DNA of 64,000 bases from Bolinopsis microptera. Its lineage: Eukaryota > Ctenophora > Tentaculata > Lobata > Bolinopsidae. Both the position numbers and the translations under genes were made by a program. Within the stretch, counting starts at the first letter, position 1; every line of letters starts with the position of its first letter. The notes under the pieces are model-generated. The model ran no database searches. It saw nothing but the letters and a program-made list of their open reading frames with translations, and had not been told where the DNA came from. Location: assembly GCF_026151205.1 (NCBI RefSeq), contig NC_087073.1, forward strand, positions 6,097,001 through 6,161,000, written 5' to 3'. Below are positions 2,213 through 64,000 of this stretch, piece after piece.

Positions 2213-5200
2213 ATTGGGAGTTTAAGGACGCGATTCTAGTTCGACAACATGACAACGGAACTGTAACTCCGTCCGGAGATGAAGGACTGTTGTATGTTAC
2301 ACTCGTCAACAAGGAAACCGGAGAGGAGAAGAGAGGGACAGTGTGTGGTTATTATGTTTTGGACACTGCACCTCGTCTCTTCTGTCAGAATATGGGATAC
2401 CCTGTTAAAGAACCAGCTACTGGCAGGACTCCAAGTTACAAATATGTTTCTGAGTAAGTTTTTAATTAAGTTACCATGATTATCATAAGTTTGAGGACAT
2501 CGAACGATTTGATTTTTAAATATATTTAAGTTTGACAGATTTACTGAGTCAACTTTATAGGAGTTGGTTGGATTTGAACGATGTTCCAATGACTGATGTG
2601 GAGTGTGACGATGACGATAAGAACATCTCGGACTGTAGTGTTAGCTTCAGCATACGCAACTGTGATCATAGAAGCGATGTCTGGCTGCAGTGTAAAGGTA
2701 AAATTGTAGTGTTATTCACGAATATAATCATAGCATTACAGTCATCCTACCATATCGGACTTTATTTGTAGGGCAATTATGTTCCCTCGGCAAGATACAA
2801 GCCCATATCCATAGCGTTTTTGCAACAAATAGCTTTAAATAATCATTCTTGTATTATATTATATTATTCTCATTTGTGATAAGAGTAACGTTTTTACTGA
2901 AATAGAGCTTTTAAAACGGCGGAAATTAGGCCAAACATCACTGTAAAAATGATAATTAGTAGTACACATCTCATCTGAAATTATGCTTGGTGTAGCTCGT
3001 TGGGTCTTGGGATAGTATAGGAATTCTGGTTCCTATAATGAGGTAGTTGTCTGTTCACAGATCGCCCTCTAAACTTACAAGGAAATATTTCACATAGATC
3101 CTTGGTATATAAGCAACATTTGACAGAGCATAGTATGGAGTGAGCTATGTGCCCATCCTTGGAGAACCCGGTGGATGTCCTTGCTGTACGGCAGTGTTAA
3201 ACAAGGAACTGAAACCGAAGGGTTCCGTTCAGGCCCTTCACACTTTGTTTCTGTCTAGTTCTAATGTACCGTCACAATAGTGACTTTAATATAAGCAGTT
3301 ACTGTGCAGCAAATATACAGAATTTGTTTAAATAATGACATTGCACTATCTACCCTATCACATACTCACATAACGGAGGTATAATGGCTATTTTAGCTAT
3401 CACATCAGTAAAACAGTGTCAGTCATTAGTATTACGTCCTCTCGAGGTTGTCAGCCTCAAATTTATTTTAAAGGAAAATAAATAAAATGCTATCATTCAG
3501 AAGAATGCTACATTGGAGAACATGGCGGGTTCCTAAAGTACAAATGTCCCCCTACAAGAGAAGACAGAGAGAAGTTCAAGTGTCACAACACGGAAGAGTT
3601 CTACTATGGCCATGACGTGTATTACGCTAACAGGTTTAAACAATCGTTATGCTCTGAGGACCCCTACTACTATCAGGCTTGTAACACAAGGTTTGATGGT
3701 TTCATGATAAGTAGCAGTGATAAATTATGTGAGAATTATTTGTGTCGGAGTGTGAGTGATAGAAATGAAATGATTTTACTTAGCACTTTGAGAACAATGG
3801 GATTGCTTTGTGATGGTATCAAACACTGTGAGGATAATATGGATGAAAAAAATTGTACAGATAAAACTATGTTACGTAGTGGTCTAGCAGTAGATCCTCG
3901 CTTTATATGTAATGATATATGTGACACTTGGTCCTGTGAGGATGAAGCATACTGTAATGGTCTGACTTATGGAATTTATTGTAAGTCCACTTCCAACAGT
4001 GGAACTGTCAATCTTAACAAATACTTTCCTCCAAGTTTTATATGCGATGGATCATATTGGTGTGATTACGGAGAGGATCAGTTCGACTGCAATGCTTTTC
4101 AGTCCTCCGCCGGACTGTACACCGCCGCAGTGACTTCCGCCACAGTGACCGGTTCCCCTTTTGACCAAACAAAGAACACATGTACACACTCTGCTACTGG
4201 TAGACTCGTGCCGGTCCACAACTTCATCAAGTGTGGAGTACTGAGCGGACAAGATTCTCAGGATCCGGATTATAGACAAAATCCGTATATTAAGTATTGT
4301 GAAGACGAAGATCTAAAGAAATATCAAACAAATTGTACAGACCAAGCTAGGGAAGGAGGATCGTGCACTATAGATGGATACAGGTCAACTTTTTCTAAAT
4401 ATATGATTTGCATGGAAGACAAACAAGCTCAAATATGTGATGATCACCTGGAAAGTCAATGTCAGGACATCTCAAAATCATGTGTTAATAAACACAAACA
4501 CGTGATGTGTGACGACCTCCCGGATTGCAATGACAGATCCGATGAAACACACCCAATCTGCCGTAAGCAAACGGAAACCACCTGCCAAAGAAGGGTTGGA
4601 AAAGCAGGTGAATTAAGGTTACCTTTAACCTGGCTAGGTGACGGTATAGAGGACTGTGTAAATGGTATTGATGAACTGGAAATCTGGCCAACATGTGGAA
4701 AGGATAAGTCCCGAAGATTAGTAACCAGCAATAAAACTTGCGAAAATGTTCTCCTGTGCCCCTCAGGAGATCCCGGCTTCGTCGAATTAAACGATCTATG
4801 TGACGGACTTGAAACATGTGGTAATGAGAAAAGAATGTGTTCATTATCCCAACATTCCTCTACAATCTTCACTTCAGTCTCCAGCAAAGGAAATAGCTTT
4901 GTCAAGTATCTATCATTTTGTATGAAAGGACTAAGGAGTATCAGCTATCTCAAAAAGGACAACTGCGCACAAGAGCGTTTCATCTTTCCAGATCATCACT
5001 TTTTTGGAGTGGACACAAAAACAGAGTTGCATCTCCCTGACAGTAAGCAACATTGTGACCACATGTATGGGGAGCAATATGTCTTCACTAGCTGCACAGA
5101 TAGATGTAAAAACTCAACCTGCCCACTAAAGAACCTGCCAAAATACGATGCTTGTTCTAATCAATACCCTAATAGGATAGGAACCATTGCCAACAACAAA

Positions 5201-6856
5201 TACCTGGTGTTCTTCACCAAATCACGCGAAAACTTATACTCGAATAAGTATTTTGTGTGCGATAATAATGTCACATGTATAAATTATTCTCAAGTTTGTG
5301 ATTTGGTTGATAATTGCGGCGACAGATCTGACGAGTTGGCATGTACAAATGGTTTCATATGCGACTCTACTCGTATCATTACCAAAGTTAAGAAATGTGA
5401 TGATAAGTTCGATTGCTTCGACATGTCTGACGAATGTAATCTGGAGTGCTCAAGACAGATACTGGAAAACGTAGCTCTGAAAGTAAGCTCATTAGTCATA
5501 GGGGGGCTAGCTGTTTTAGCAAACCTGATCATAATGGTAAAGAACATAGGATCTCTGAAACACTGCAGGACATCTGTTTCCTTGGCTAACAAATCTCTGA
5601 TAATCTTGATATCTTTGGGAGACTTCTTAGTGGGTTGCTATTTGTTAGTCATAGCAATATATGACGCGGTTATTTTCAAGAAAGACTACTGCAAAAGTCA
5701 AATTGAATGGATGACTAGCCTTCAGTGCTCCACAATAGGTGTTGTCAGTACCATAGGATCCCAGATCTCCTTATTTGCCATGGCAGGGTTGAGCACCATT
5801 AGGCTAAATGGAATAAGAGGTTCACTCAGAGTCCCAGGTGAAGTCAACTTTGCAAAATCTGTTAAGGTGGCACTAGGGGTACTTTGCATCGTGATGACAT
5901 CTGCAGCCATTGCCATCGCACCAATAATTAGCTCATTTGAAAACTTTTTTGTAAACGGATACAAATTTTCTGATGAGCTTAGACTTTTTATCGGAACTCA
6001 AACCAAACAAGAAGTCCTCGCAGTCCTTGAAGCTTACTATGGACGGATGAAAGGAAAAAACCTGAGTTGGGAAACGATCCTAAAGATGTACCGTGGCATG
6101 TTCTCTCATGATGTAGGATATCCAGACCACACCGATACAGTCACAAAGCTTGATTTCTATGGCAATGACGGTGTATGCCTCTTTAAGTATTTTGTCGACA
6201 ACAACGACCCCCAGAGAAACTTCGTTTGGGCGATACTCACCGTAAACTTTGTCTGCTTCCTATTCATTTCAATATCATACATTTTAATAGGAATTGTTTC
6301 TAGAAATTCCTCAAAAGGTCTTGCTAATCCACAGAACAATCGACAAATTAGTAATCGAAACCGAAAAATGGGTAGAAGGATAACAATCATCATCACTACT
6401 GACTTCTGTTGTTGGGTGCCTTTCATCGTTATCTGTGTGCTACACTCCCTAGAAGTGTTTGATGCAACTCCATGGTACAGTATATTCTCAATGATCATCT
6501 TGCCAATAAATTCTGTGATAAACCCATTCCTTTATGAAGATTTTTTCACAGGACTACTCAGAGCATCTTTTAACTCAACCTCAGCCAGAATCACCAATTC
6601 ATCCATTTACCAAACTTTCATCGCACGTCTCAGTACTGCCCAACCTGAAGTTATTGAGATGGAGCAGATAGAAGTTCCAAGAAGAGAACCTGCTAGTAGT
6701 GTTCTCAGTACTGCCCAACCTGAAGTTATTGAGATGGAGCAGATAGAAGTTCCAAGAAGAGAACCTGCTAGTAGTGTTCTCAGTACAGAAGAAAAGCAGA
6801 AAGAACCTGTCGAACCGAAGACAATAGCTGATATTCCATCACGCGGTGATATGTAG
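2213..6856 (+). CDS. SRCR/LDL-receptor-A/7TM G-protein-coupled receptor, 5' partial
   Basis: Three phase-consistent exons (2213-2453, 2561-2697, 3501-6856, stop TAG) encode about 1240 residues. Exons 1-2 form one scavenger-receptor Cys-rich domain (RGTVCGYYVLDTAPRLFCQ, then DVECDDDDKNISDCS and NCDHRSDVWLQC). Exon 3 carries about seven LDL-receptor class A modules; the two next to the membrane are most canonical (CGDRSDELAC, CFDMSDEC). A rhodopsin-family 7TM core follows (about 5475-6540) with TM2 Asp in SLGDFL, TM6 CWVP and TM7 NPFLY. The TM3 DRY position reads TIRL, so the acidic residue is absent. LDLa ectodomains joined to a class A core occur in RXFP relaxin receptors and snail GRL101, but no leucine-rich repeats are seen here. 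Ligand and G protein are unknown. The signal-peptide exon was not found. Confidence 0.88.
6629..6778 (+). repeat. 75-bp perfect tandem duplication in receptor tail
   Basis: Two identical 75-bp copies encode a 25-residue repeat in the cytoplasmic tail (STAQPEVIEMEQIEVPRRE at its core). The unit length is a multiple of three, so the frame is kept. Complete nucleotide identity suggests a recent duplication. Confidence 0.95.
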
Positions 6857-7973: not shown

Positions 7974-10900
7974 TCAATTTTTTCTGGATCGAAATTTCAC
8001 GAAGCAAATAATGAACGACACAAAAATGTGGCTGACCAGGCGTTTGTTGTTGTGTTTTCTCTGTTTTTCATCCTCACAACTCTCTGCCAAAACCATCTTG
8101 AGGTGTTTTTCAAACGAGTCACTCTTCGCTTTCTCCCCCTGAAACATCACAGTTGTGAGCTAACTTTGACAGCTACTGATTTAAAACAAACTGTTCCCGG
8201 AATAAGCTCTGGCTCTGAAGAACTTACATTCCAGGGCAGGGGTTAATCTCTTAAATTTTTACAAACCTGAAGTCGCCATTTCAGAGAAGCGATGGTTTTG
8301 GTTTTATGTCCAGAGTCCTGTTTCAGTTTGTTGATCTGGCCTGCAAGTTCATTCTTTTCAGATGTCATATCAGCTATTTTGTTGGATTCAAGCCCAGTCT
8401 CCTTTACAGCTGCTGTCTCTGCCTGCTTGAAATACTTAGTTGTTAACTGGTATAATTTCACATACGCTATATTCGGAATGCTGTAATATTAGAATGACAG
8501 AATTCTGTAATGTTAGAATTCTGTAATATTAGAATGCTCTAATAATAGAATGCTAGAATTCTGTAATGTTAGAATGCTGTGCTACACACGGAGATGCTCT
8601 TGCGAAGAAGTGTGGTCTGTATTTTAGACAGATCAAAATTCAAACACATTACACAGGAAGCTTGAAAACAGTTTTTATAAACAGTTTCAAAGCCTTCCAT
8701 TCAACCTACAGTTGGCACAGCAATTTCACCAGCATTCGCTACAGCTAGCTGAGCCACATTAATTGCAGCTCCCTCAAAATAACTTCTCTTCTCCGCTTCT
8801 TGACATCGTGTCAGTAAAACCTTCATTTCTTTCTCTTTCTCTTCCTTCAAGCTTTCTAGTTTTGTCTGCAAATATTCATCGCTAAATAAAACTTACGGCC
8901 ATTTCAAGAACAATTGTTGGAGAAAAGAGCCTAGACAGATCGAGAATAGTCTGTGAAACTGTTACAACTATAACTGAACAATGTTAACATACAATGTATG
9001 TTAAATGTTAATAACATACATTTAGGTCTGCTTGAGACTTGCTTAATCGCTCATTGTTTTCTTTTATTGAAGTAGCCTTGGTTTTCTCCAGCTCTAAAGC
9101 AAGTTCCAGCTTCTTTTTGATCTCATCATTACCCTCAACCTTGTCCTCAAACGAGGCGAGCCTAGGAATAATTTGATATTTGAAAGATTTACAAGTACAT
9201 GTTTCCGCTAGTGATAAATGATATAGTTTATACTTATAGATGTATAATGTATATGATTTTAGTTTTACTGATAAATTACTGGTTAAAACCAAGCTTCAAA
9301 GCCATTCAGTCTGATTCGATCTAACATAAGAAATTTGGCGATCTGATGGACATGCAACACTGAGGTTCAAACGTTGGACTCCAACGCCTGTGTGCATAAG
9401 ACGAATACAAGACAAAGTCCTTATTCAGTCCAAAAGTTAAATAATGGACCACACGTGTTCACTAAAATCACCTGTCTTTGTACGATTGGATAGTTTCTTG
9501 TGCGTCCGGTGGTAGTTCAGCAAGTGTCTTTACTTCCAACTCAGATATCTGTTTTCTCAGTTCAGCAATAATCTAAGAAACTTATTATTAGCCATCTATC
9601 AAATCTTACCTGTTAGCATATGCTTCGTGACCAATTTTCAAGATCTAAGCCTAACAAACTATTCGAAACTTACATCTTGTTTGCTTTGTAACTCTGTTTG
9701 ATGAGATTTGGAGTTAGCTTCTGTCAGTTTCTTCTCATCTTCAAACTTCTTCTCATTTTCTTCTTCCTTTTTCACCATCTTCTCCTGTATGGACGTAACT
9801 TCTTCTTTACTGCTGTTCAACTGAAAGATAATAGTATGAAGCCCCAAGGCAACACGAAGAAGAGCTCTTTTCCGCTTGTTTTTGCTTGACTGAGTTAGCA
9901 AGATTTGAAATACTGATATAACATCGAATCATAGTTACTTAGCTTTTCAGAAAATACCAACCTCCGAATTTAGCTGTTCCAGATTGTTCTTGAGATCAAT
10001 ACGTTCTTTACTGGCAGTCTCCTCTACCAGATGCTTTGTTTTCTCTGCCTCTTGACACCTTATCAGTAGAGATTTGTTTTCTTTCTCTTTCTCTTCTTTT
10101 ACATTCGATAGCTTTGTCTGCGGATAGAAATGTAGTCACAAGTCGTAACCTTTCAGTTTAATAATACAAATCAGCATTATTGGGGGGGGGGGGGGGGGGG
10201 GGGGGCCACTATTCACCCAGACAACTCCCAACAAATAAACCAATCTGTGGGTAAGATGGAAAATGAAAATAAAAACTAACACTCATGTCTGCCAGGGATT
10301 GATTTAATCTATGAAGGTCTTCTTGAAGTGAAGTAGCTCTAGTTCTCTCCAGCTCAACTGATAGTTCCAGTTTATTCTTCAGTTCATCCTTACTTTCAAC
10401 TTCTAGCTCCAGTGTGACCAGTCTGCAATATCATCACTCATCAGTTAAGCTAAATTACTATAGTAGAACTTTGAATATCTTTGAAGAACTAAAAGTAAAA
10501 TGTTTAACATTTTATATGGGATTTACCTATCTTGAGCAACTAGGTTAAGGTGTTTGTAAGGATCCCCATTTTGTGCCGGTTTTTATTAGTACAAAACTGT
10601 TGTATTACCTGTCTTGGAATGTCTGGATAGTTTGTTGAGCATCTTGTGGTAAATCAGCTATAGTTTTTGCTTCTAAGTCTGTTATCTGTTTCCTCAAATC
10701 AGCAATTACCTGACGGGTGACAAGTTGTGAAAGCCAAATACACAGCGATAACAGAGAAAGTTTGAAATTGTTTTAAGCATTGTTTTATTTATAATACAAT
10801 ATATTTCGAATTAAAACTTACATCTTGTTTGCTTTGTAACTCTGTTTGATGAGACTTGGAGTTAGCTTCTGTTAGTTTCTTCTCATCTTCAATCTTCTTC

Positions 10901-13900
10901 TCATTTTCTTCTTCCTGTTTCACCATCTTCTCCAGTACGAACTTAACTTCTTCTTTACTGCTGTTCAACTGAAACAGAATCAAATGTTACCAAACCAAAT
11001 GTGCGACTCGTGTGTAAATTAAAAGGTGAGATGGGAAGGAACTAGGAAACAATTCTCTGGGGGTGTGAAGAACAAACCTACCTCTGATTTGAGTTGTTCC
11101 ATATTGTTTGTAAGTTCTCTGGGGTGTGAAGAATAAACCTACCTCTGATTTTAGTTGTTCCATATTGTTTGTAAGTTCTCTGGGGTGTGAAGAATAAACC
11201 TACCTCTGATTTTAGTTGTTCCATATTGTTTGAAGTTCTCTGGGGTGTGAAGAACAAACCTACCTCTGATTTTAGTTGTTCCATATTGTTTGTAAGTTCT
11301 CTGGGGTGTGAAGAATAAACCTACCTCTGATTTTAGTTGTTCCATATTGTTTGTAAGTTCTCTGGGGTGTGAAGAACAAACCTACCTCTGATTTTAGTTG
11401 TTCCATATTGTTTGTAAGTTCTATGACCACTTGATTAGTGGACGGAGAGTTTGTCATCTCTAGTTGAGATGGAGAAGTTATGTTTGCTATAGCTAGTTGA
11501 GTAACGTTGATTGCCGCTCCCTCGATCTGCTTTTTCTTTTCTGCATCTTGACATCTCGTTAGTAAAGCTTTGACTTCCTGGTCTTTGTCTTCTTTTAGGT
11601 GTAAGAGCTTTGCCTGTAATAATAAGCTGTTGATATTAAATCAAATCACTAGAAAATAGAGCATCCTAGCGTAATATCATCATCGATAAATTGGACAGTA
11701 ATCTTACTATATATAAAGCGAGACGATATATTATATCTGTTACCATTTTACTGACACCACGACATCCGCGAAAACCGCGGGAGATATATTATTAAAATTT
11801 CTTTTGGCTGGGTCAAATACTTTTATGGCCTTTTTTTTAAAGAACATTTGAATATAATTTGAAACATTACAGAAATGTTGTACAAATCGCTCAAACACAC
11901 ACACAGCACACTCGGTTTTAATTCGGTAAAATTCCATTCGAAAATTAAATGATTCTCAAAATGTAGGTGTCTAATGAAAATGTGATACTGATATCTGGAT
12001 ATTATCCGGTTGGAAGAGACAAGGACAAGTGAAACAAGGAAGTTAGGAGTAAGGGCAAATTTTCGGCGTCAACGCCATCTTCAGGCTCAATAAATGTAAT
12101 AGATTTGTAGTGTTGTAATTAGTTTAAAACTAATTACAACACTACAAATCTATTACATTTATTGAGCCTGAAGATGGCGTTGACGCCGAAAATTTGCCCT
12201 TACTCCTAACTTCCTTGTTTCACTTGTCCTTGTCTCTTCCAACCGGATAATATCCAGATATCAGTATTTCAATCATGAGACTAATAAACAGCGAACTACT
12301 CCGTTATTTGAAAATGTGATACTGTGTGACAAAGTTAAGAATGTCGTAGTGAAAGAGAGTTAAATGTCGATAAATTCATGTGAGGTACTTTCGAAGTTCA
12401 AAATGTTGTGATGGGTGACATGATAATGACTGATAAGAAAAAGTTTTCATGTCAACTGTGCCAAATCCATAACAGTGTGATGACTGTCAAAGTGTCTACC
12501 ACTAGGTACTTGGACGAACAAGTGTACCCGAGGTGTTCTGAGAGAATAAGGGGACAGGCTCGGGAACACGAACGCGCGCTAGTCGCTAGGGCAAAAAAGT
12601 GAAATGCACAGTAGGCAAGTTAAAAAACGGAAAATTAAAATGCCGTTTGGGCCAAATGCAGTGAGCCAGTAAGGTACGGTCGTAGGAGCAAGTGGCTCTG
12701 AATACTAAAACTGATGAGGCTGATGCTGAAAATGAAGACTGAAAGAGGGGGAAGCAAAGGAGAAGGACAGGATGCAGGGGGACAAGAAAAAAGAAACAAG
12801 AGTGGAGACAAACCACCTGCTGAGGTCTTTTGACCAGTATATAGAAATACAAAAATTGGCCAAGGAATAAATAATTTAGGTCCCGAAAATTGGTCCCCAG
12901 GTGGTGTCAAAATCACAAAATAAATAAATATTGTTGTCTCTTGACACCACTTTAGAGTTAAACGGTTTAGAGTTCCAGAACTATGCTAGTAGTAAACTAT
13001 AGTATATTCTAGTAGTAAACTTAATTACTAGTAAACTACTAAAAATAATATTGTAAACATAAATATAGAAACTCACACTCAAATCAGCAATAGTCTGGTT
13101 CAATCTGCCAACATCTTCATCCAGAGAAGAGGCTTTAGTTTTCTCTAACTCTACCGACAGTTCCAGTTTGTTCTTCGCCTCATCGTTTTCCTCAATCTTT
13201 TGTTCCAACACTGTTAACCTGGTGGGAATGGTTTCCAATTTGTGAAAGTGAAAGTGAAAGTATTAGGTCGCACAAGAGTGCAAATATTACACAACTTGTC
13301 ATTTCTGATGATAAGGAAAACAAATGTTTATCAAAACCAAGTGGTTATAAGAAGCCAATTTATCAGGAAGTAAGAACTCAACACCCGTGGAGTTCTGATT
13401 CACGGTACATACCTGTCTTGGTATGTCTTGACTGTGTCCTGGGCATCAGTTGGTAGAGTAGCCAACTTCTCTGATTCCAAACTTGAGATCTGACTTCTCA
13501 AATCAGTAATGATCTGACAGTGATAAATATTAACGTTACAGGATCGTTAATTAATGAATATTACAGTCATAATAGGATATTAATACCGTGTACTTTGTAT
13601 AAGTAAGTAGAACAGTGTGTATAGATCTACAGAGAGTGTGCTCCTTACATACAGGTTTAACTTACATCTTGTTTGCTTTGTAATTCTGTTTGATGAGACT
13701 TGGAGTTAGCTTCTGTCAGTTTCTTCTCATCTTCAATCTTCTTCTCATTTCCTTCTTCTTGCTTCTCCATCTTCTCCAGCACGGACTTAACTTCTTCTTT
13801 ACTGCTGTTCAACTGAAAAAATTGTAAATGATAAGAATTATAAATGATGAATGGTGGGTCAACCCAACAATGACAAGAAAAGCTCTTTTTTGTATGATTG

Positions 13901-14690
13901 TGAATTAAAAACGAAGAACGATTAGAACATACTATCAATCAATCCTGATAACTAATTATCCTAATTATCATAATAATCATAATAACTTAATTCTTCCAGT
14001 GTTCACCAACCTCCGAATAAAGCTGCTCCAGATTATTTTTGAGTTCAATAATTTCTAGCTCTTTATTTGCAGATTCCTTCCCAACAAGCTTTGTTGTCTC
14101 TGCCTCTTGACACCGTATCAAGAGAGATTTGTTTTCATTATCTTTCTCTTCTTTCACATCTGATAGTTTTACCTGCAAAAAGTAACAGCGTATCACAAGC
14201 TATCACAAATGCTACTAGCTCTATAGAATCAATCAGATTGAGGAAACTGGTATATTATTACAAATATAACGGGCAATAAAATTAAATAAAAGAAAATGAA
14301 AATGAAAATGAAAACTTACGTCCATGTCTGCCAGGGATTGATTTAATCTATGAACGTCTTCTTGAAGTGAAGTAGCTCTAGTTCTCTCCAGCTCAATTGA
14401 CAGTTCCAGTTTATTCTTCAGTTCATCCTTACTTTCGACTTCTTGCTCCAGTGTGACCAACCTGTAGAATCATCAATTAAGTGGGAGTAATGACCTACTA
14501 ACGGTATGTGTTTCATTACCTGCAATATCTTAACCAGAATATGATCGCACCGCAAATCAAAACAAATGTTCAAAAGAGATCCCTATCAGTAGTTAGTGAC
14601 TAAACAGTTGACAGGGTTATTGTTATGAAAATGAAATAATGGCGTCTGGATTTGGGAGCAGCTCACAGTACCTTACATTAAAGCCTTCTG

Positions 14691-14728
<38 letters not shown>

Positions 14729-16239
14729 TACCATATATTGCTTATAAAGGTTGAGTAAGGAGCTGCTAAACCAATGGGCCTCTAAATTCAGTAAACTGCT
14801 GTTTGGGGGGGGGGGGGGGGGGGGGGGCGGCTGTTTTATCACCTGTCTTGAAATGTCTGGATAGTTTGTTGAGCATCTTGTGGTAAATCAGCTATAGTTT
14901 TTGCTTCTAAGTCTGTTATCTGTTTCCTCAAATCAGCAATCACCTGACGGGGACAGGTTGTGAGGTAATTCCACAGCGATAATAAAAAGAGTTTATTTTA
15001 CAGAAAACTATTAGTTCTCAACCAGTAAGTTCTATTAATGCTTTTCATACAAGGTTACGACAAATTCTTCTTGTTATGCATCCTGGGTTTGGACAGGATA
15101 TGACCCGTTTAAAATATTTCAATCACGTTACATAATTCTGAAACATATTATATTTACAATAAATTATGCAATCACAACATTGTAATCAACAAAATAAATT
15201 TAATCACAGAATCTCAGATACAAATAATCATAAATTAAGCACAAAAACAAATTAAACAAGCAATAAATGAATATGTAACTGAACAGCAACTAAACTGAAC
15301 AGCAACTAAACTTACATCCTTTTTGCTTCGTAACTCTGCTTCACGAGAATTAGAGTTAGCTTCAGCTAGTTTTTTCTCATCTTCAAATTTCTTCGTATTT
15401 TCTTCTCTTACTCTTTCTACCTCCTCTCTTGCTAGCTTCGTTTCTTCTTTAGCATTATTTAACTAACAAGGAAGAGGTTGAGTGCGAAATTTCAAATTGA
15501 TAAATTTTCCGTTCAAATTTCAGGAAACTGTTGAAATACGGATACATCTGAAGTCTGAACCCGTGATTAAAAAATGAAATTTACACTAAAAGAGTTCATG
15601 GATTAGTGTAAATTGTACATTATGCAAGTCAACCAATAACAGACCTCAATTATAAGAAGTTCCATTTTGTTCTTCAGCTCAACATTTTCTCTGTTTGTTG
15701 ATAAATCATGTTTATCAATAGACACACTATCAGGGGAAGTTGTTGTAGAAGACTCAGCGCCAGGTGCTTGTTCTGGTTCAAGACGTTCCGTGCTTTCACT
15801 TTCAGCGGCAGCAAGCACTGCTGAAGCAAGCACTTCTGCTGTAGCAAGGACTGCTGCGGAGTGCTACAGTGTTCCAGTCAGAATTTGGAACTATAACTTT
15901 ACATAACAGATAGCAGATTTATTAACGGAACACGTGAATTACAGCTAAGCTAAATAATATAAATTAGCAACATTTAATTTGCCAGCACAATGAATTCCGT
16001 CTGATTTACAACTAATCAGGAATATTACCGTTACCTCAGATTATGGGGGGGGGGGGGGGGGGGGGGGGGTAGTATAGTTACTAGGTTACTAGTGTAGTTG
16101 CTAGGTTACCTCAGATTTGATGTGCTCCAACTCAGCTGACTTCACCTCTTCCTCACTTTTAAACTCCTTCAGTCTTTGGTTCTTCTCGTGCGTCACTTCC
16201 GCTTCCGCCTCCTCCTGTTCTACCTCCGCTTCTCTCAGC
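7974..16239 (-). CDS. Long coiled-coil protein with duplicated exon cassettes and hydrophobic C-terminus, 5' end unresolved
   Basis: Twenty exons, all phase-consistent, give at least 980 residues: 16239-16110, 15863-15645, 15462-15316, 14943-14843, 14461-14320, 14172-14011, 13812-13666, 13513-13413, 13218-13077, 11613-11386, 10968-10822, 10709-10609, 10422-10281, 10117-9962, 9820-9674, 9572-9472, 9161-9020, 8865-8710, 8434-8267, 8138-7974. Sequence is rich in Glu, Lys and Gln with leucine spacing typical of coiled coils. The C-terminus ends in a short hydrophobic stretch (HIFVSFIICFV) flanked by basic residues, compatible with a tail anchor. No catalytic domain is seen and I do not recognise the family. 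The first exon expects a partner ending in phase 2; none was found before the pentraxin gene, so the start is either beyond that gene or missed. Confidence 0.75.
10182..10205 (+). repeat. Poly(G) tract, 24 G
   Basis: An uninterrupted run of 24 G on the plus strand inside an intron of the minus-strand coiled-coil gene; its transcript carries poly(C). Confidence 0.95.
11054..11418 (-). repeat. 61-bp minisatellite, each unit carrying an exon end and a 5' splice site
   Basis: Six copies of a 60-61-bp unit overlap the 3' end of the 228-bp exon. Read on the minus strand, each unit holds the last coding bases of that exon (AACTAAAATCAGAG), a consensus donor (GTAGG) and the first intron bases. The first copy ends the exon at 11386; the other five lie in the intron. 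Long stretches of the array stay open in more than one frame, so a downstream donor would add residues rather than stop at once. Confidence 0.93.
11975..12324. repeat. Perfect 141-bp palindrome flanked by 16-bp direct repeats
   Basis: Arms 11985-12125 and 12127-12267 are perfect reverse complements around a single A at 12126. The direct repeat TGAAAATGTGATACTG occurs at 11975-11990 and 12309-12324, as expected of a target-site duplication, with about 40 bp of non-palindromic sequence at the right end. The element lies in an intron of the coiled-coil gene. A relative of its central sequence (CAATAAATGTAATAGATTTG) recurs near 25460, so it belongs to a dispersed family. Confidence 0.9.
12325..13076. 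other. Intron of coiled-coil gene, nothing further seen
   Basis: No exon-like sequence with matching phase and no recognised mobile element. The surrounding intron (11614-13076) is the longest of the gene, mainly because of the palindrome next to it. Confidence 0.5.
14697..14827 (+). repeat. Two poly(G) tracts, 29 G and 23 G
   Basis: Runs of G at 14697-14725 and 14805-14827 lie in one intron of the coiled-coil gene, 16 bp from the exon at 14843. They are strong candidates for G-quadruplex formation on the plus strand. Confidence 0.95.
16045..16069 (+). repeat. Poly(G) tract, 25 G, beside a duplicated splice donor
   Basis: The run lies in the intron after the first recognised coiled-coil exon. 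The exon-end/donor sequence (plus strand GTTACCTCAGAT) occurs twice, at 16030-16041 and 16105-16116, so the tract sits between two copies of a 5' splice site. Confidence 0.9.

Positions 16240-30567: not shown

Positions 30568-64000
<33,433 letters not shown>

Follow-up and report, generated by a model that had tools for sequence, protein, structure and literature searches.

Host gene and its exon modules

The window analysed here is a 64,000-nt stretch of the genome of the ctenophore Bolinopsis microptera (NC_087073.1, positions 6,097,001 to 6,161,000); coordinates are those of the window unless another sequence is named. Its minus strand carries a gene whose product, read by eye, has a coiled-coil-like sequence and whose central portion is made up of successive four-exon modules, A-B-C-D. 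The module protein that we tested matched no Pfam family. The exon at the centre of this work, its neighbours and its paralogous copies are listed below, with a slash at the exon-intron border.

Exon A2, 11386 to 11613, minus strand: 228 nt, phase 0 at both ends, coiled-coil; contributes its last 37 nt to repeat unit 1 as the exonic part
Intron A2-B2, 10969 to 11385, minus strand: 417 nt from donor 1, 113 nt from donor 6
Exon B2, 10822 to 10968, minus strand: 147 nt, phase 0 to 0, the next exon; frame kept if skipped
Paralogous exon A1, 9962 to 10117, minus strand: donor GAG/GTTGGT, one GAGGT in junction and intron, no array
Paralogous exon A3, 14011 to 14172, minus strand: donor GAG/GTTGGT, one GAGGT in junction and intron, no array
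Paralogous exon A4, 15645 to 15858, minus strand: 5' border uncertain, donor GAG/GTCTGT, one GAGGT in junction and intron, no array

The borders of exons A2 (11613-11386) and B2 (10968-10822) are predicted from the in-frame paralogous modules, and A2 is supported by its in-frame translation and by the paralogous exons A1, A3, A4 and A0. When the exons from A2 to A0 are joined the reading frame stays open. In comparisons between module exons, dN was lower than dS in 15 of 18 cases and the remaining three yielded no dS, a pattern suggestive of selection to maintain the protein, although this is a weak test as the exons are short and related.

The three copies of exon B (B1, 9674-9820; B2, 10822-10968; B3, 13666-13812) show 8 to 12 differences over their 147 bases. 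Where B2 matches B1 and B3, the similarity ends within a few bases of the exon, and B1 and B3 lie within a longer block of 72% identity; either gene conversion or constraint at the level of the exon could account for the limits of the B2 match. Ahead of exon A2, the intron contains a perfect inverted repeat (11985-12267, two arms of 141 nt separated by 1 nt), which may be a small mobile element.

A minisatellite with a splice donor in every unit

TRF reports a tandem repeat at 11053-11422 with a period of 61, 6.1 copies, 97% matches and a score of 696. Read directly on the minus strand, positions 11422-11057 consist of six head-to-tail units of 61, 61, 61, 60, 61 and 62 bp. Each is made up of the last 37 nt of exon 11613-11386 (36 nt in unit 4) followed by the start of the intron, which contributes 24 nt per unit and 25 nt in unit 6. 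All six units carry the identical donor GAG/GTAGGT, with its GT at 11385, 11324, 11263, 11203, 11142 and 11081; one of these is the normal donor and five are extra. The preliminary description of a minisatellite that holds the exon end and a donor in every unit, with equal donors in series, is thus borne out by TRF and by direct reading. Its count of six units also stands, but not its uniform length of 61 bp.

Unit 1 with donor 1 (GT 11385), 11362 to 11422, minus strand: 61 bp; exon end, taken as ancestral, the sole frame-keeping donor
Unit 2 with donor 2 (GT 11324), 11301 to 11361, minus strand: 61 bp
Unit 3 with donor 3 (GT 11263), 11240 to 11300, minus strand: 61 bp; contains the stop that closes donors 3 to 6
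Unit 4 with donor 4 (GT 11203), 11180 to 11239, minus strand: 60 bp; exonic part of 36 nt with one A fewer, candidate microexon
Unit 5 with donor 5 (GT 11142), 11119 to 11179, minus strand: 61 bp
Unit 6 with donor 6 (GT 11081), 11057 to 11118, minus strand: 62 bp
AGAA, start of the unique intron tail, 11053 to 11056, minus strand: the same four bases open each unit; candidate founding microhomology

Any two units are separated by 0 to 4 changes, with no difference at all in two of the pairs. In the 264,652,675-base assembly (264.65 Mb) to which it belongs, the array had one match. A 28-base pattern over the donor, searched with up to 3 mismatches, matched six times assembly-wide, always inside the array, while the reversed pattern used as a control had no match in the assembly. 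These searches score the best candidates only, and the single locus is a finding of that search.

The array is known from a single assembly, in which we found no second haplotype copy of it, and in a real animal it might be shorter or absent. We regard such an assembly or haplotype artefact as the least probable of the explanations considered in this work: the units can be told apart by substitutions and two indels, and a single locus was found in the assembly. A minisatellite coding for a peptide repeat does not fit either, as the units are 61 bp long and one of the three unit frames contains two stops.

Relation to known arrangements

The array is real and its kind of arrangement is already known, with similar cases in human genes. 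Its units are short, highly identical and in tandem, and the donor of the adjoining exon is present in each of them (six GAG/GTAGGT in six units), as in minisatellites or VNTRs over a splice donor of the ABCA7 type. A minisatellite in the human gene 6-16/G1P3 is said, in the title of a 1995 article by Turri et al., to give multiple splice donors in an interferon-induced transcript; the gene is presumably IFI6, going by the papers that cite the article.

The nearest parallel with measured transcripts is human ABCA7. There a 25-bp VNTR in intron 18 (PMC5954066) includes the donor of exon 18, each unit beginning with the donor GT; the array has 23.7 units in the reference, is polymorphic and has had its transcripts measured. 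The transcript that retains one unit is frame-shifted and reaches a premature stop; its level is apparently 2 +/- 1%, going by the order of the text (PMC5954066). The Bolinopsis array resembles this VNTR in being a tandem array that includes an exon's donor and in which retention of one unit would shift the frame and lead to an early stop. It differs in its 61-bp units, which carry 37 nt of exon as well, in its six copies and in being known from DNA sequence alone.

Other systems share parts of this arrangement. A survey of internal tandem repeats at exon-intron boundaries in human duplicated genes describes minisatellites that alter splicing (PMC2812944). These are likewise minisatellites at an exon-intron border, but they have transcript support and units of about 30 bp on average. 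Tandem duplication across an exon-intron border can also yield new introns, the duplication bringing splice signals along as it does here (PMC4974935). In those cases the new intron is spliced; in the Bolinopsis array a GT-AG segment of 24-25 nt lies between copies. The IR1 (W) repeat exons of EBV also have splice signals in each tandem unit, yet in this viral repeat every unit holds entire exons, which undergo splicing and translation (PMC12451641), and the likeness is an analogy only.

Origin of the array

Four paralogous A-to-B junctions, those of A1, A3 and A4 in the window and one in the 10-kb neighbour L018, have the same exon end segment; exon A0 is without it. All four have one GAGGT in junction and intron, and none of the four has a tandem array. 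Because these junctions have a single donor and no array, donor 1 would be the ancestral position and the array a later local duplication. The array would accordingly be younger than the module copies, the sole argument being these four junctions, among which A1 and A3 share a longer block and are not independent. Unit identity is not usable for dating, owing to homogenisation by turnover.

The AGAA that opens each unit also stands at the start of the unique intron tail that follows unit 6. This fits a founding duplication assisted by microhomology, a step that we infer. We propose that a tandem duplication of about 61 bp, which by chance took in the last part of exon A2 together with its 5' splice site, founded the minisatellite and that later expansion gave the six units. 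Without the five extra units the intron would be 113 nt long, as the same intron is in the L018 paralogue, and the sister introns in the window, of 141, 182 and 198 nt, are all longer than this.

As a control for array frequency, 20 stretches of 10 kb from the contig that carries the array were searched for units of 20-200 bp in at least 3 copies with at least 85% matches. There were at least 3 such arrays in 200 kb, and in one of these the unit included a donor-like site with a score of 9.39. Overlapping rows were reduced to the smallest period, so that these counts are lower bounds; in the window the same reduction kept one array and lost a 32-bp array at 46748-47445, most likely to an overlapping 16-bp row. 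As far as this small one-contig sample without gene annotation goes, arrays are fairly common, and some could therefore land on exon borders by chance.

Donor choice and the reading frame

Splicing from donors 1 to 6 would extend the exon by 0, 61, 122, 182, 243 and 304 nt, that is by 0, 1, 2, 2, 0 and 1 modulo 3. The cycle of three that had been expected from donor use is therefore not a clean one. Donor 1 alone of the six keeps the downstream exons open. Donor 2 leads to a stop after 100 residues from the exon start, 11 nt into exon B2, while donors 3 to 6 all lead to a stop after 113 residues from the exon start, in unit 3. Long open stretches do exist inside the array in more than one frame, as had been noted (the longest runs in the three frames are 80, 49 and 76 codons), but the frame in which the exon enters the array stops in unit 3. 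Idealised arrays built from 2 to 10 identical units had one open path each, that of donor 1, and copy number alone would thus leave the productive product unaltered. Frame cycling as a source of protein variants is rejected for the real and the idealised arrays, as both are open with donor 1 only.

Probable decoy donors, or possible regulated splicing

We consider it probable that the array is no more than an ordinary minisatellite that overlaps a donor, and that donor 1 is productive while the other donors are decoys or a minor leak into unproductive splicing. The gene would stay functional, most productive mRNA coming from donor 1. The other five would be neutral decoys, and a minor share of transcripts would leak through them, acquire premature stops and be expected to meet nonsense-mediated decay. 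Skipping of exon B2 (147 nt, in frame) may also occur, by analogy with ABCA7. Against this reading, identical donors compete, and the gene might put up with a shortened protein or make use of it.

Trans-acting factors could shift the balance between donors. SRSF1 favours intron-proximal donors and hnRNP A1 intron-distal ones (PMC5585400). In this array the preference of SRSF1 would fall on donor 6, which is unproductive, and that of hnRNP A1 on donor 1.

Alternatively, the array may determine what fraction of transcripts is spliced from downstream donors and then degraded, so that the number of copies adjusts the gene's level. Each of the five extra donors leads to a premature stop that is followed by further exon junctions, but any unselected duplication of this kind would equally give stops. 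The score of the donor, 11.72 from a small within-gene matrix, exceeds the best of the 16 gene donors (11.64, leave-one-out) and is reached at 7 of 399,240 positions in the 200-kb sample. The matrices draw on this one gene, with 16 donors and 16 acceptors of which many are paralogous, and all scores are a rough guide. In ABCA7, longer arrays go with lower expression and more skipping of the next exon, but the form that retains a unit stays constant whatever the VNTR length (PMC5954066). Only one allele has been seen at the Bolinopsis locus. On balance we find regulated unproductive splicing unlikely, if less so than the remaining alternatives.

A bolder version of this idea, which we find more doubtful still, is a copy-number-dependent trap for U1 snRNP and the spliceosome, in which array length tunes gene dosage and unit 4 is becoming an in-frame microexon. 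Productive output would depend on donor 1 beating n-1 identical downstream donors, and the one-base difference of unit 4 would have begun to make that unit an in-frame microexon. If this were true, the locus would offer a natural series of identical 5' splice sites with a nearly even spacing of 61 nt.

Hiding of the extra donors by RNA structure found no support from folding of the units or of the whole array. The whole array was less stable than 100 of 100 shuffles (a rough control, as shuffles of a repeat are not repeats), and three unit variants were no better than shuffles.

A candidate microexon in unit 4

The candidate microexon can be judged in its own right. Every unit ends with a pyrimidine-rich stretch and CAG. 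In an exonised repeat, donor 1 would be joined to the acceptor-like end of unit 3 through a 146-nt intron that is possible on paper, and unit 4 would form a 36-nt in-frame microexon adding RTSNNMEQLKSE. If the acceptor-like unit ends are counted as acceptors and introns have at least 40 nt, 2 of 32 splice paths are open, namely the normal path and that of the microexon, which exists because unit 4 has one base fewer; the same two are the only open ones (2 of 144) when 24-nt introns are allowed. Such mini-introns were judged unlikely, the GT-AG segment between copies being 24-25 nt long and the shortest of the 16 introns listed for the gene 101 nt.

With a score of 1.72, the acceptor-like site before unit 4 outranks 3 of the 16 gene acceptors (leave-one-out), but a score of this size occurs about once per 76 positions on both strands of the 200-kb sample. 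Moreover, in an idealised array an extra path was opened by 160 of the 265 scored single-base deletions and by 823 of the 1095 scored insertions (out of 305 and 1220 respectively, those that broke the 8-base donor pattern being dropped). The microexon path is not special, because many single-base indels open an extra path, and we hold exonisation of unit 4 to be very unlikely, only slightly more credible than an artefact of the assembly.

The locus is of interest in two respects. With six identical donors at nearly even spacing on one natural exon, it provides a clean test of 5' splice site choice at equal strength. It also shows how a duplication that arose by chance at an exon border could be retained, since at any copy number the first donor still gives the right protein. 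Otherwise the array looks like an ordinary by-product of minisatellite formation.

Other duplications in the gene and its neighbourhood

A second duplicated donor lies in the same gene (16110-16035, minus strand), with GAG/GTAACC at 16110 and GAG/GTAACG 75 nt downstream. A run of 25 C lies between the two; the added length is divisible by three, but stops occur within it. Four runs of 23-29 G (C on the gene strand) occur at 10182-10205, 14697-14725, 14805-14827 and 16045-16069. They are the only G/C runs of at least 15 bases in the window and all fall inside the gene span; the 200-kb sample has nine such runs.

A candidate retrocopy at G000:C2:6091741-6092175 was considered as a record of the spliced junction and rejected, as it is a neighbouring paralogue in which exons B, C and D are fused and the other introns retained, and is silent on donor use. 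The neighbouring paralogue in L018 has its exons B, C and D joined in a single open stretch of 390 nt (4735-5124, minus strand) that lacks the two introns; this length is exactly that of the three exons together (147, 101 and 142 nt). The exon upstream of this fused stretch seems, by eye, to be frame-interrupted.

L018 also contains a 49-bp array (272-615, 7.0 copies, 98% matches) and a 30-bp array of 12.8 copies. Elsewhere in the window, an exact in-frame tandem duplication of 75 bp (6628-6786, 2.1 copies, 100%) lies near the C-terminal end of a long open frame that matches 7tm_1 and Ldl_recept_a.
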